From NCBI RefSeq assembly GCF_030717995.2, contig NZ_CP157743.1, positions 682,001 to 746,000 on the forward strand: DNA of 64,000 nt. Direction: 5' to 3'. This DNA comes from Methylomarinum sp. Ch1-1. Lineage in GTDB: Bacteria > Pseudomonadota > Gammaproteobacteria > Methylococcales > Methylomonadaceae. The position numbers were made by a program, and so were the translations under genes. The notes beneath the pieces are model-generated. The model saw nothing but the letters and a program-made list of their open reading frames with translations. It had not been told where the DNA came from and made no database searches. Shown piece after piece: positions 20 through 57,615 of this stretch. The number at the start of each line of letters is the position of its first letter. The first letter of the stretch is position 1.

Positions 20-149
20 CAGCAATTCCGAATTTGAGCGTTTTAGCGGTGTTTAGGGCCAGGGTGTGTCTGTCGAGAAACCCAGCACCTAAATTCCATG
101 GCTATAGGACTATATTTTACATTCCAGGATAATTTAGGTGCTGGGTGAA
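20..149. repeat. Left half of repeat O joined to hairpin H
   Basis: Bases 20-80 match the left half of the O element (CAGCAATTCC end, then the block around GGTGTGTCTGTCGAG). Bases 81-149 are a complete H hairpin whose arms are CCCAGCACCTAAAT and ATTTAGGTGCTGGG. The right half of O is missing, so this is a truncated composite just downstream of mpl. The H arms may also end the mpl transcript, but there is no clear U-run. Confidence 0.8.
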
Positions 150-2575: not shown

Positions 2576-2812
2576 GTAACTACTCAGTATGAAAATGCGC
2601 TTTCTATCAGTTGCTTGCTCCGGAAGGCGCCGTTCACCCAGCACCTAAATAAACGAAGATGCTTTATCGCAGCCATTAGCCTATGGAATTTAGGCGTTGG
2701 GTGAATATATCCCTATAGGCTTGTATGCGACATACTTGTCGCATACACTTCTTCCGCAAGCAACTGATAGAAAGAGGAAATATTTTCTCAATACCGAGCT
2801 TTAATTAGTTAC
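2576..2812. mobile_element. Palindromic MITE, family C, with nested hairpin H
   Basis: Starts GTAACTACTCAGTAT and ends with the near-complement (TTAATTAGTTAC). Long inner arms pair around CTTTCTATCAGTTGCTTGC (near 2600) and GCAAGCAACTGATAGAAAG (near 2755). The flanks TAATTGTC (2568-2575) and TCATTGTC (2813-2820) look like an 8-bp target duplication with two differences. An H hairpin (2633-2705, one arm diverged) occupies the middle. It fills most of the space between the ankyrin gene and apaG. Confidence 0.75.
2633..2705. repeat. Hairpin element H inside family C element
   Basis: Arms TTCACCCAGCACCTAAAT and a diverged ATTTAGGCGTTGGGTGAA. The loop differs from the loop shared by most other H copies, so this copy is older or of another subtype. 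Confidence 0.75.
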
Positions 2813-11568: not shown

Positions 11569-12680
11569 GGCTGCGCGAAAGCTTTTGCACCAATGCGATG
11601 AATCCTATCCCCGCTCATGGCGTTGAATTGGAACCAAAGCGATCGGCGAAAGCTTAAGCGGATGGTGACTATTCAGCTTGGTACTGAGAAAATATTTCGT
11701 AACTACTCACCCCATTCGTAGGGTGGATAAGCGGAGCGCATCCACCGGGTCGGCATCTTTGGTGGATGCGCTCTTCAGGCTTATCCACACGCTGACCGCC
11801 ATGGATGGCGGAAATGCCGGTTTTGCCATCGTCCATGATGGTCAGCATCGTAGGGCGGCTTCGCGAAGCAAGCCGCCAAAACCCGCGCTGGGGACAAAAT
11901 TGGCACTGTGCGTATCAAAGGCGGATTGCCTATCGGCGAATCCGCCCTACGATTGCGATGCCCATGTAAAGCCGATCGTCTTGAAACACATCGAAACATG
12001 GTGCGCTTCCTATCGTCAGCTCACCCTACCGCATCGGGTGGATAAGCGGAGCACATCCACCGGGTCGGCATCTTTGGTGGATGCGCTCTTCAGACTTATC
12101 CACATGCTGACCGCCATGGATGGCGGAAATGCCGGTTTTGCCATCGTCCATGATGGTCAGCATCGTAGGGCGGCTTCGCGAAGCAAGCCGCCAAAACCCG
12201 CGCTGGGGACAAAATTGGCATTGTGCGTATCAAAGCAGCATATCATCACTTTGGCGTTCAAAAAGGGCATGGGGTGTGTTTGGCGAGGATGTCGGCAGCA
12301 AGGATGCTGCCGTCAAGCCCCCAGGGATGGGTTTACCCAGCACCTAAATACCATAGACTATTGGCTATGATTTATTATCGTCGTTTATTTAGGTGCTGGG
12401 TGAACGGCGCTCCTCGATAGACACACCCCATGCCCTAAACCCCGCAAAAATACTCAAACTGAATTGCTGGTATCAAAGGCGGATTGCCTATCGGCGAATC
12501 CGCCCTACGGTTGCGATGCCCATGTAAAGCCGATCGTCTTGAAGCACATCGAAACATGGTGCGCTTCCTATCGTCAGCTCACCCTACCGCATCGGGTGGA
12601 TAAGCGGAGCACATCCACCGGGTCGGCATCTTTGGTGGATGCGCTCTTCAGGCTTATCCACCCTATACGCCGGCCTCTTT
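11569..12680. repeat. Gene-free block of stacked palindromes with a tandem duplication
   Basis: No convincing gene. From 11718 to 12664 the sequence is built from palindromic units: a 73-bp unit with arms GGGTGGATAAGC and GCTTATCCACCC (11718, 12035, 12594), a unit with arms GCTGACCGCC and GGTCAGC, and hairpins around GGCGGCTTCGCGAAGCAAGCC. About 310 bases are tandemly duplicated (11735 onward and 12052 onward). The second copy is interrupted by a complete O element at 12236-12469. Open frames across this block arise from the palindromes. The left edge (11684-11700) carries a solo end of family C. Confidence 0.85.
12236..12469. mobile_element. Complete O element with nested hairpin H, 9-bp target duplication
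   Basis: 234 bases bounded by CAGCA and GAATTGCTG ends. It is flanked by the exact direct repeat GTATCAAAG at 12227-12235 and 12470-12478. The unfilled target GTATCAAAG followed by the same downstream sequence exists once at 11912-11920 in the adjacent duplicated block. An H hairpin (12336-12404) sits in the middle. No coding capacity, so it must be mobilised in trans. Confidence 0.9.
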
Positions 12681-21940: not shown

Positions 21941-22107
21941 CAGCAATTCCCAATTTGGCGTTCAAAAAGGGCATGGGGTGTGTTTGGCGAGGATGTCGGC
22001 AGCAAGGATGCGGCCGTCAAGCCCCCAGGGATGAGTTTACGGCGCTCCTCGACAGACACACCCCATGCCCTAAACACAGCAAAAATACTCAAATATGGGA
22101 ATTGCTG
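21941..22107. mobile_element. O element without hairpin H, 9-bp target duplication
   Basis: 167 bases with terminal inverted repeats CAGCAATTCCCA and TGGGAATTGCTG. Flanked by exact direct repeats CAACAATCC at 21932-21940 and 22108-22116. This is the simple form of O: its centre reads straight through (TTTACGGCGC) where other copies carry H. It lies between dnaN and recF, so it interrupts the replication gene block without breaking a gene. Confidence 0.92.
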
Positions 22108-25913: not shown

Positions 25914-26166
25914 CAGCAATTCCCAGTTTGAGTATTTTTGCGGGGTTTAGGGCATGGGGTGTGTCTGTCGAGGAGCGCCGTTCACCCAGCACCTAAATTC
26001 CATGGCTACTGGACTATATTTTACATTCCAGGATAATTTAGGTTAATTTAGGTGCTGGGTAAACCCATCCCTGGGGGCTTGACGGCAGCATCCTTGCTGC
26101 CGACATCCTCGCCAAACACACCCCATGCCCTTTTTGAACGCCAAAGTGATGATATGGGAATGGCTG
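25914..26166. mobile_element. O element with nested hairpin H, 9-bp target duplication
   Basis: 253 bases, ends CAGCAATTCCCAG and GGGAATGGCTG, flanked by exact repeats GAATTGAAC at 25905-25913 and 26167-26175. The H hairpin occupies 25981-26060 and has a short internal duplication in its right arm. Bases 25865-25904 immediately to the left are the right end of another, variant O element (with CCAAATT.. and CACCCCAAGCCC), so two O copies once met here. Confidence 0.9.
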
Positions 26167-28251: not shown

Positions 28252-28323
28252 TTCACCCAGCACCTAAATACCCTGGGTTATTGGCTATGATTAATAATCT
28301 TCGTTAATTTAGGTGCTGGGTTA
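28252..28323. repeat. Hairpin element H inside B copy 1
   Basis: Arms TTCACCCAGCACCTAAAT and ATTTAGGTGCTGGGTTAA with a loop of the ATTGGCTATGATTAAT type that matches the copy at 12336, not the majority loop. Confidence 0.85.
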
Positions 28324-30816: not shown

Positions 30817-30942
30817 CCCAGCACCTAAATTCCATGGCTACTGGACTATATTTTACATTCCAGGATAATTTAGGTGCTGGGTTTCTCGACAGACATACCC
30901 CATGCCCTAAACACCGCAAAATGCTCAAACTGAGAATTGCTG
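30817..30942. repeat. Hairpin H plus right half of repeat O
   Basis: H at 30817-30881 with the majority loop, followed directly by the right half of O ending GAGAATTGCTG. The left half of O is absent. Located between the HlyD gene and hemW, which are divergent, so it lies within their shared upstream region. Confidence 0.8.
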
Positions 30943-34926: not shown

Positions 34927-35450
34927 TGGGTAATAACTTTCAAGTTCTCCGTTAATAAGCAGTTGTTATTGCGTTTCACCAGATTCAAAATGCTAATGAT
35001 GCGCCTACTTCCAGCAATTCCCAATTTGGATAACAAAGAGGGCTTGGGGTGTTTGGCAAGGATGCCGCCGTCAAGTCCCCAGCACCTAAATTCCATGGCT
35101 ACTTGGGCGGGGCACTCGCCCCGAATGGCTCTTTTCGCGCCGAGGGCGGCGCTCCTAGGCAAAGCGCCGTCTTGCCTTCGGATGTTGAACAGCGTGAAGC
35201 GCATCAAAAGCCGGTGCGCTTCCTATCGTCAGCACACCCACATTCGTGAGATGGATCACGCGCAGCGGATCGGCTAAAAGCATTCAATGCACGCGGGGCG
35301 GGTTATTCAACCCGCCCCGAACGTTTAATTTACTTTAGGCGTAATTATTCAACGTACTTTTAATGAGGTAGCCCTGGCAAGTCGCCATATCCTATATCTA
35401 TTACAGTCTGCTATCATATTGCCTACCACCATCTGATTTGGGAGTGGGCC
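34927..35450. repeat. Gene-free stretch with partial O/H and REP-like repeats
   Basis: Holds the left half of a variant O element fused to the left arm of H (35012-35102), a reverse REP-like unit with the core GCTTCCTATCGTCAGC at 35218-35233, and a hairpin with arms GGGCGGGTT and AACCCGCCC at about 35295-35325. No gene seen. Confidence 0.75.
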
Positions 35451-36099: not shown

Positions 36100-38140
36100 G
36101 TGTGACTGGCATGGTAGTCAGCTAGCTGGTGAAAGTCCAGCCTTTGCCCTGTGAGAAGGGAAGAAGTAGGCGAAAGCAAGGGTGTCCAAAGAAACTCCCG
36201 GTAGCTACCCAACAGGGAAGCACGGTTACCGAGAGCCAATGCGGAATCTGAAAGAAGCTCTAGCCGAATCGGTCACCTAAACGAGAGTGAACCTTCGTAA
36301 GGCGGCAGCAAGAGGATGAGGTGCCCGCGTCCACCGAAGTCCGATATTCTCACCGTAACTTGCTGTTGTATTGAAGGTAGGTGGACCGAGATAAAGTTGA
36401 CTATCTTACCCAGTGAAGGGCCGTCGGCTTCGGGTCGGTGTAACTGCGACACCTTAAGCCCTAAGCGCAGCAGTAATGCTGACGTGATGAACCGAGGGTC
36501 TGCAGATGAAGCCGTAGTAATCGTAAAGTTCGATGCCGATGAGGTTATGGTGACATAGCTGAGGGAAAAACATCGAACCAGTGACAGGAAGTTGGAGGTG
36601 AAGGGTGGAACACGTAAGCGGCCATGGCCGTTGATTATAAACTGAGGGTCTGAGATCAGCCTGACAGGAGCAATCGACTATTCGCGTCGTAAACAGTGAA
36701 CGAATCGATTGCGCGAGATTGAAGAAAGGCCATTGCAAGAGAGAGAAAAAAAAGTGAAATGAACGAACATGACCGATTGATTGAGGAACCAAGACTCTTT
36801 GACCAACTGTGCTCAACGTTGTATTTGAGTGCGGGATTTGAACAGGTGAAGAAGAACAAAGGCAAACCCGGCATTGACGGGGTCACGATAGCCGACTTTG
36901 AAGCCCGTTTAGACGAAGAGCTAAGTCGTCTGCAACAGGAATTGCAGGATTGGACTTACCAACCCTCGCCGGTTCGCCGAGTGGAAATACCTAAGCCTGG
37001 CGGCAAGGGCGTACGTCTGCTCGGCATACCGACGGTGCGGGATCGTGTGGTACAGACGACCCTGAAATTGTTGCTGGAACCGATCTTTGATCCGCATTTT
37101 CAGGGCACAGCTATGGCTTTCGTCCGGGACGGAGTCAACACCAAGCGGTGCAAGCGGCGCAACGGATCGTGGAAAGCGGTAAACCCTATGTGGTGGACAT
37201 CGACTTATCGAAGTTCTTCGATCGTATTCACCACGACCGGCTGATTGGCCGGATGGGGCAACGGATCGCCGACAAACGCATCTTGCGCTTGATCGGCATG
37301 ATGCTGCGCAGTGGCGTGATGATCAACGGCGTCGTCAACCCCAACAAGGAAGGTGCGATGCAGGGCGGACCGTTAAGCCCCTTGCTGAGCAACATTGTTC
37401 TGGACGAACTGGATCAGGAATTGGAAAAGCGCGGACTGGAATTTTGTCGGTTTGCCGATGACTGCAACATTTTCGTTGGGTCGCAAAAGGCGGCGGAGCG
37501 AGTGATGGAGAAAGTCAGCCAATTCATCGAAAACAAGCTGAAACTGAAGGTGAACCGGGAGAAAAGCCAAGTGGCTAAATCCGATGCGGTAAAGTTCTTA
37601 GGCTTTACCGTGGTCGACGGGACGGTGGCGATTGCGCACAAAGCCCTGCAAACGGCCATGAGTAAAGTCAAAGCCTTAACGCCGCGAGGCACCCATCAGA
37701 CGCTGAATCACACCCTGGCCGACCTTAATCAGTGGTACGTGGGCTGGGCCAACTACTACAGCTTGACCCAATACCCGTCCCAGCTGAGGAAAATCGAAGC
37801 CCATATCCGGCGACGATTACGAGCGAGGCTGGTGAGTCAGCAGAAGCGGAAACAGCATCTGTATCGAAACCTGGTCAAACGGGGCGTACCGCGAAAGCAA
37901 GCCGCCCAGACGGTCTTTTCCAACAAGAAACGGTGGGCGCTTTCCGCAACCCGAGCGGTGACGAGAGCCTATCCGAACAGTTGGTTTATCAACCTGATGG
38001 GACAGGAAATACGATCCGACCGACAGTTAGCGCATTGGTTTGAGGTATCTCAATGGATTCGTCTTACGTGAGGAGCCGTGTACGGACCCGTACGCACGGT
38101 TCTGTGGGCAGACGGGAGCTGCGGCTCCCTCTGACCCGAT
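36100..38140 (+). mobile_element. Group II intron with frameshifted maturase ORF
   Basis: 5' end GTGTGACTGG at 36100 fits the GUGYG consensus. The 5' 650 bases are structured RNA domains, the maturase ORF follows, then a domain V-like hairpin (GAGCCGTGTACGG…CGTACGCACGGTTC, 38073-38106) and a domain VI-like hairpin ending CCCGAT at 38140. Joining the flanks (GCGTAGCG | GAATCCAGG) restores one arm of a palindromic repeat whose other arm follows at about 38170-38205. So the intron sits in the stem of a REP-like hairpin just upstream of yaiI. Confidence 0.85.
36759..38071 (+). pseudogene. ltrA: Group II intron reverse transcriptase/maturase, frameshifted
   Basis: N-terminal part in one frame (36759 to about 37104): KNKGKPGIDGVTIADFE, PVRRVEIPKPGGKGVRLLGIPTVRDRVVQ. 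The rest in the next frame: HSYGFRPGRS, VVDIDLSKFFDRIHHDRL, GGPLSPLLSN, FCRFADDCNIFV (the RT active site, FADD) and the maturase X domain, with no endonuclease domain after it. The switch falls at 37104-37106 (GGGCACAGC), consistent with loss of one base. Translation from the first start would give only a 161-residue N-terminal fragment ending at 37244. The intron may still be mobilised in trans. Confidence 0.88.
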
Positions 38141-51957: not shown

Positions 51958-52403
51958 TAACCAAAGGAACATAGTGGAATCCGAGATAATATCAGCCACG
52001 TTTATCCTGGATTCCGCAGTCCATCCAGGAAACAAACTGAAACGGCAATAATTCCTAGTACTCAGTCATGTAGACGGCTACTCGGTAGGCGCCAGCAATT
52101 CCCAGTTTGAGTATTTTTGCGGTGTTTAGGGCATGGGGTGTGTCTGTCGAGGAGCGCCGTAAACCCATCCCTGGGGGCTTGATGGCAGCATCCTTGCTGC
52201 CGACATCCTCGCCAAACACACCCCATGCCCTTTTTGAACGCCAAAGTGGGAATTGCTGCCCAATTGGGGAGGAGTCTATATATGGGAAATATTGCGGTAA
52301 GATGTGGGTAGGGTGTGCTGACGATAGGAAGCGCACCGGTTTTTGATGCGCTTCACGCAGTTCGGCACATCCTACAAAGGTAAAGTGGAGTAGGAGCGCC
52401 GCC
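51958..52403. repeat. Gene-free region with REP-like and O repeats
   Basis: 51975-52031 is a REP-like palindrome of the GGATTCCGCAG type. 52093-52258 is a simple O element (166 bases, no H) without a clear target duplication. 52317-52332 is the REP core GCTGACGATAGGAAGC. The left end of the IS4-family IS follows. Confidence 0.8.
52093..52258. mobile_element. O element without hairpin H
   Basis: Ends CAGCAATTCCCAGTTTG and GTGGGAATTGCTG, 166 bases, uninterrupted centre. The 9-mers on either side (GGTAGGCGC and CCCAATTGG) do not match, so the copy has been rearranged or its duplication has decayed. Confidence 0.85.
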
Positions 52404-57376: not shown

Positions 57377-57615
57377 CAGCAATTCCCATATATGGCGTTC
57401 AAAAAGGGCATGGGGTGTGTTTGGCGAGGATGTCGGCAGCAAGGATGCTGCCGTCAAGCCCCCAGGGATGGGTTTACCCAGCACCTAAATTCCATGGCTA
57501 CTGGGCGATATTTTACATTCCAAGATAATTTAGGTGCTGGGTGAACGGCGCTCCTCGACAGACACACCCCATGCCCTAAACACAGCAAAAATGCTCAAAC
57601 TGATGGGAATTGCTA
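57377..57615. mobile_element. O element with nested hairpin H
   Basis: 239 bases. Flanks TGAAGAAGG (57368-57376) and TGAAGAAGA (57616-57624) form a 9-bp duplication with one change. H occupies 57477-57545 with the majority loop. It lies between the divergent aroF-type gene and the TonB operon. Confidence 0.88.

Follow-up and report, generated by a model that had tools for sequence, protein, structure and literature searches.

Type II MITEs are those that share sequence with an autonomous IS in the terminal repeats only (PMC10969869). A close parallel to the elements treated here is MITEAba12, with its partner ISAba12, of Acinetobacter, a MITE of 111-114 bp with GGCTTTGTTGCA-type ends found in 90 copies over Acinetobacter genomes and one Moraxella (PMC6382973); for the Nezha / ISNpu3-like elements of cyanobacteria, too, a co-resident IS has been proposed to move the MITE (PMC3049150, PMC3733652). 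The repeat family that we term O resembles MITEAba12 in being short and non-coding, in carrying the ends of a resident DDE IS and in making 9-bp duplications, and mobilisation in trans is argued for both on the same grounds; the ends and the IS are different, however, and no nested hairpin figures in the description given of MITEAba12 (PMC6382973). O fits the type II definition as set out in PMC10969869, its likeness to the IS being confined to the terminal repeats, but differs from the type II MITEs presented there in holding a second palindromic element, which occurs also in another MITE family. With Nezha it has in common the proposal of a co-resident IS, and plasmids of Nostoc and Calothrix carry relatives of the O partner; this comparison is one of descriptions, not of end sequences (PMC3049150, PMC3733652). 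The relevant passages of PMC6382973, PMC10969869, PMC3733652, PMC3049150 and PMC11448079 do not describe O, and among open-literature papers on the ends of O, H and P or on MITEs in methanotrophs none was found, judging from titles or passages, that does.

We conclude that O is very probably a type II MITE moved in trans by the transposase of a co-resident 1,410-bp IS, and that a hairpin, H, nested in many of its copies is carried with them whenever they move. The existence of short and long forms of O, the nested H and the partner IS all go beyond the first-pass annotation of this DNA. Together they make a complete pair of helper and MITE from methane-oxidising bacteria that can be put to the test, with numerous fixed ends and empty sites.

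The locus from which the family was recognized, O1, lies in the window, by which we mean the whole stretch of 64,000 nucleotides analysed (G000:C2:682001-746000 of a 4.77 Mb genome). The first-pass annotation had placed a 234-bp element there between two exact copies of its target and, in a neighbouring duplicated block, an empty site with the target once. All of these coordinates were confirmed (Table 1), and the flanks of O1, when joined, match the block at 109 of 111 positions. The duplicated block, its copies spaced by about 315 bp, occupies positions 11700-12660 together with GGGTGGATAAGCGGAGCGCATCCACC-type repeats; Tandem Repeats Finder reported no array at the block, and the duplication was established by direct comparison. 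The ends originally proposed, CAGCAATTCC, hold for the family but not for O1 itself, because the left end of O1 has lost AATTCCC and reads CAGC-ATATCATCAC; undamaged left ends, such as that of the copy in L074, read CAGCAATTCCCATATCATCAG, and the right end of O1 is CAGCAATTCA.

Table 1. Positions in the window of O copies, of the hairpin H and of the target sites of O1.
Feature	Position	Strand	Flanks, duplication or motif	Basis
O1, long form of MITE O with nested hairpin H	12236..12469	+		similarity to other copies
Left target duplication of O1	12227..12235	.	GTATCAAAG	read from sequence
Right target duplication of O1	12470..12478	.	GTATCAAAG	read from sequence
Empty site in neighbouring duplicated block	11912..11920	.	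single GTATCAAAG	109/111 match to joined O1 flanks
O2, short form without H	21941..22107	+	CAACAATCC, exact 9 bp	
O3, long form, H loop inverted	25914..26166	-	GAATTGAAC, exact 9 bp	
O4, long form	57377..57615	+	TGAAGAAGG/TGAAGAAGA, 8/9	
O5, short form (166 bp)	52093..52258	-	no duplication (GGTAGGCGC/CCCAATTGG)	
H, 65-bp palindrome inside O1	12336..12400	+	CCCAGCACCTAAAT-N37-ATTTAGGTGCTGGG	
H inside O4	57477..57541	+		
Half O copy joined to H, other half missing	20..145	-		
H joined to half O copy, other half missing	30817..30942	+		
H in Q-type repeat, not O	2637..2701	.		
H in P-type context	28256..28320	.	flank CCATTGATTTCTCGGGACG	
Truncated O copy, left end and start of an H	35012..35109	+		

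Two further copies with exact 9-bp duplications (O2, O3) and one with a near-exact duplication (O4) had likewise been reported, and their coordinates check. Within the window CAGCAATTCC is matched 24 times at no more than one mismatch, against 5.9 expected. The mechanical ORF list has no entry of 100 aa or more that touches O2, O3 or O4, and gives overlapping frames of 230 aa for O1 and 132 aa for O5; judged from this list, the description of O as non-coding holds. The two half copies joined to H meet it at the same O junction, and such joins might have come from recombination of one H copy with another, or the joined unit might be a composite in its own right.

Across the genome exact CAGCAATTCCC ends occur 259 times, against 3 for the reversed pattern. 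We sampled the family from stretches around listed end matches (beyond 740 kb, forward matches only) and some similarity matches; scanning these gave 98 non-overlapping end pairs, of which 73 have the O core; an end score of at least 20/24 is reached by 68 of the 73. The 30 pairs left out comprise 25 without the core, probably mostly chance pairings, and 5 with poorer ends; O1 lies outside the 68 because its end is damaged, and since the 68 were picked for good ends and core they are not a random sample. Exact 9-bp duplications flank 46 of them, each of a different sequence, and exact 10-bp duplications two; among the remaining 20, five match at 8 of 9 positions and 15 show neither, some of these looking mis-paired or truncated. 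Mismatched flank pairs, taken as a control, never agreed exactly at 9 in 4,556 comparisons, and agreed at 8 or more in three. The counts of ends and of duplications both uphold the earlier view that O is a real element. Recent mobility, claimed at the same time, is borne out by two 166-bp copies (1210604 and 1461258) that are 100% identical, at different sites and with different duplications, and by empty counterparts, in the DNA fetched from this genome, for 11 of the 51 copies whose duplications agree at 8 or 9 bases (one of the 11 is inside an H, and one best matches O-like sequence).

Size classes of 160-180 or 215-260 bp accommodate 58 of the 68 sampled copies. At none of the outer 12 positions does conservation fall below 83% (66 copies, chosen for good ends), the consensus ends being CAGCAATTCCCA, and the interior folds back on itself as a long hairpin, with z -9.8 for the RNA of O5 and z -9.6 for the DNA of O1. 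A hairpin of this strength would suit a repeat of the REP/REPIN type, spread by tyrosine (RAYT/Y1) transposases, and the genome does contain 15 Y1 (RAYT-type) transposase matches that pass the cut-off of Pfam, fragments among them. REP/REPIN repeats have a tyrosine transposase as partner and are not known to insert with target duplications such as these; O has both 9-bp duplications, which no mismatched pair reproduced, and terminal inverted repeats in common with a DDE IS, and we reject a REP/RAYT identity as scarcely credible. The same fold, with the position of O2, O3 and O4 outside the larger ORFs, might also be expected if the copies were old residues, their mobility past, that have been selected as intergenic RNA hairpins or terminators. 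The identical pair of copies, the frequency of exact duplications and the presence of two intact, near-identical IS frames (see below) speak against this, and we consider it quite improbable.

The first-pass annotation had also suggested looking for a full-length element with O-type ends and a transposase. Such an element is present: an IS of 1,410 bp (G000:C2:522176-523585) with a 433-aa ORF between inward-facing CAGCAATTCCCAATTT ends, which read CAGCAATTCCCAATTTAAAACC at both sides. A second intact coding copy, its frame near-identical to the first, lies at 2961879-2963177, and there are several broken frames besides; to the right, this second copy is flanked by the terminal portion of an O copy. 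In the five copies from this genome that were examined (those near 4240xxx and 4340xxx being left out) the duplications are all of 9 or 10 bp: CAGTCCACCT (10), TGACCATGC (9), TCATAAGAC (9), AAACTTATTG (10) and GGTGCAAGG (9), the last ambiguous as it sits inside a local repeat. When the 68 O copies were compared with the IS by blastn, the best 20 rows were end matches only, covering the outer 16-18 bp, and the CAGCAATTCCCAATTT ends agree at 16 of 16 positions with several O copies. It is because the common sequence, in these best 20 rows, is confined to the outer 16-18 bp that we class O as a type II MITE; the possibility that it is an internally deleted form of the IS was rejected, the likeness ending at the termini. 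In other respects too O has the make-up of a type II MITE, being short, non-coding and multicopy with terminal inverted repeats, and duplicating 9 (sometimes 10) bp where the IS duplicates 9 or 10.

From these similarities we infer transposition in trans. Most likely the DDE transposase of the IS would bind the outer 12-16 bp of O, cut the element out or copy it, and insert it with staggered cuts of 9 bp, sometimes 10, to leave the target duplication; any H inside would be passively amplified each time O moved. The mover might instead be one of two transposase relatives of about 58% identity encoded in the same genome (C1:9404 and C2:90020), or a relative since lost. Both have open frames and CAGCAATTCTCA ends, with 9 bp duplicated at each (GCGGAATAA and CTCTAAGGG), and their ends, CAGCAATTCTCAATTT, are similar to the O consensus, but it is the 1,410-bp IS that has the exact CAGCAATTCCCAATTT ends found in several O copies, and we regard the relatives as unlikely movers. 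The 1,410-bp IS stays our preferred partner.

The transposase of the partner IS matches Pfam DDE_Tnp_1 at 25.2 bits (cut-off 23), and this domain is present in seven of seven aligned transposases. The only IS-family label among its relatives is that of WP_013335080.1, an ISNCY-annotated transposase of Gloeothece verrucosa that is 42.8% identical to it and whose element has CAGCAATTCTCATTTT ends but, unlike the partner IS, no target duplication; membership of ISNCY is weak as a classification because the label is a catch-all for unclassified ISs. ISAs1 elements are recognized by a DDE_Tnp_1_assoc domain and an NCBIfam ISAs1 match; this family was rejected for the partner, PF13808 reaching 22.2 bits, below its cut-off of 32.3, and no ISAs1 model appeared among the NCBIfam matches up to E 1. 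IS4 and IS1380 were set aside on NCBIfam scores of 19.3 against 152 and 17.7 against 180 bits. No solved structure matched the transposase by sequence up to E 1, no phage record matched it, and six exact peptide patterns, whose reach is close relatives only, did not find it in viral_contigs.

A search of 41 genomes, this one included, with O5 gave matches in eight: among the matches listed, those in G000, G001, G010, G015 and G021 reach the O ends, and those in G006, G029 and G040 are interior only. The partner transposase has matches in 10 of the 41, and at E 1e-40 or better in 5 of 274 genomes sampled from the class, again with this one included. CAGCAATTCC-ended elements with 9-bp duplications, which the first-pass annotation had proposed to seek in related genomes, were found: exact 9-bp duplications occur at six of ten end pairs in G015 (one of the six an IS) and at two of two in both G010 and G021. 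In a set of named GTDB loci, chosen for their exact H arms and drawn from Methylomicrobium sp. wino1, M. buryatense 5G and several MAGs, the count is 9 of 21, and three further O copies there (L048, L049 and L056) have exact 10-bp repeats. G001, of the same genus, has O matches and no transposase match, and its four end pairs include no exact 9-bp duplication, one agreeing at 8 of 9 and two at 10 bp; G009 has the transposase and no O match. IS copies in G015 (L151, L160 and L174) have the same kind of ends and 9-bp duplications (8 of 9 in L160). Relatives in cyanobacterial plasmids, 51.5% and 49.9% identical, have nearly the same ends (Calothrix GAAATATAC, Nostoc GGTAATCCC), and two of three cyanobacterial plasmid copies combine this kind of ends with a 9-bp duplication. 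No duplication was seen at the IS copies of G009, of L170 (G015) and of Gloeothece, and a Methylomagnum plasmid stretch showed a single IS end. A blastn search of plasmid and phage records at E 1e-5 did not find O itself.

Short O copies (166 bp) differ from long ones (about 235 bp) by H, which is exactly 65 bp in 67 of the 74 copies first examined and whose loop, as read from alignments, falls into several sub-types and is found in either orientation. H forms a separate repeat family: exact copies number 174 in this genome, nine in G015, six in G021 and two in G001, against zero in the control; exact H arms were absent from the other 37 genomes searched. H lies also within P/Q repeats, whose ends are GTAAYTATTCAG. 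P/Q end pairs with at most two mismatches are flanked by exact 8-bp duplications in 20 of 36 cases in this genome and 7 of 17 in the named loci, with few at other lengths; the ten P pairs listed from the named loci contain no H. IS66-family elements of about 1.67 kb are present in the genome, at G000:C2:1719497-1720285 and other places (L394-L403). IS66 ends begin GTAA and make 8-bp duplications, in agreement with the resident copies: ten were fetched, and the nine with both ends, GTAATTATTCAG and GTAAGTATTCAC, all have an exact 8-bp duplication, the tenth being without such ends. The P/Q repeats, with the ends and duplication length of the resident IS66, have the properties of IS66-type MITEs, and these resident elements are their likely movers.

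Among 100 distinct H copies in the DNA fetched from this genome, 29 have both O ends within 260 bp, 19 of these with an exact 9-bp duplication, and 16 have both P ends, eight with an exact 8-bp duplication; one copy is counted in both sets, and the 56 that remain show a single end of a kind or no such end at all. One palindrome therefore sits in MITEs with the ends of two different insertion sequences, and with a hairpin common to MITE families of different ISs the origin and exchange of MITE interiors can be tested by counting. A further class, the R-type repeats with ends TAGGAATATGCACAAAATAACTTC and AAGGAACGAGCATGAAATAACTTC, some with H, was noticed in L186, L193, L232; L273, L278, L279, L294 and L354. 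A terminal-repeat scan for this class gave no pair in this genome and five in the named loci, all without duplication.

Among the matches listed, the named loci hold 127 distinct H copies: 97 are bordered by an exact 4-bp direct repeat and 30 by none, no exact direct repeat of another length from 2 to 8 being seen; mismatched flank pairs agree at 4 bp in 25%, since few tetramers occur. For 84 of the 97, again among the matches listed, there is an H-less counterpart with one tetramer, and these repeats and H-less sites suggest that H was itself inserted. In the genome of the window, direct flanks occur at one H copy in 87; most flanks there are complementary, TTCA..TGAA in 25, TTTA..TGAA in 21 and TTCA..TAAA in 20. 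The O core of this genome is TTTA in 14 of 15 H-less copies and TTTA..TGAA in 30 of 32 filled ones. A simple flank rule is disfavoured because TTTA..TGAA is frequent in the O core of the named loci as well (5 of 11 filled copies, with direct flanks in 3 of 11, among the matches listed).

These data would fit a palindromic, non-autonomous 65-bp element that duplicates 4 bp at TTYA, has a preference for palindromic MITEs and their tips, and has been spread as a third-level passenger by no fewer than two unrelated transposases, one ISNCY-like and one of IS66. In the species of the window the second tetramer would have been turned into the complement of the first, so that the arms now reach through it (TTCA-H-TGAA vs TTCA-H-TTCA), an apparent footprint of palindrome repair. 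We hold this account to be plausible, if a little short of probable. Alternatively, H would not be a separate insertion, and the H-less forms would have arisen by its deletion between the 4-bp repeats of an ancestral hairpin: H has an equivalent position in seemingly homologous cores, and a hairpin between direct repeats should favour slippage deletion. H is also found between other flanks, as in L253, and the R-type core of the named loci fits several insertions into variant targets: among the matches listed, its filled forms are mostly matched (TTCA/TTCA 54, TTTA/TTTA 18, TTTA/TTCA 2, other 3) and both tetramers recur without H (TTCA 27, TTTA 5, other 2). We hold the deletion account to be less likely than not, though a serious contender. 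Were H indeed an element of its own, repeats in bacteria would make up a three-level chain of parasites, from IS to MITE to hairpin.

The DNA fetched contained no autonomous partner for H. A stretch of 2,405 bp between H arms elsewhere in this genome (L383, 947-3351) was considered for this role and rejected, as it holds a group II intron and not a recognised transposase. The window has a group II intron of its own, at 36229-38140, with Rfam scores identical to those of the intron in the L383 stretch.
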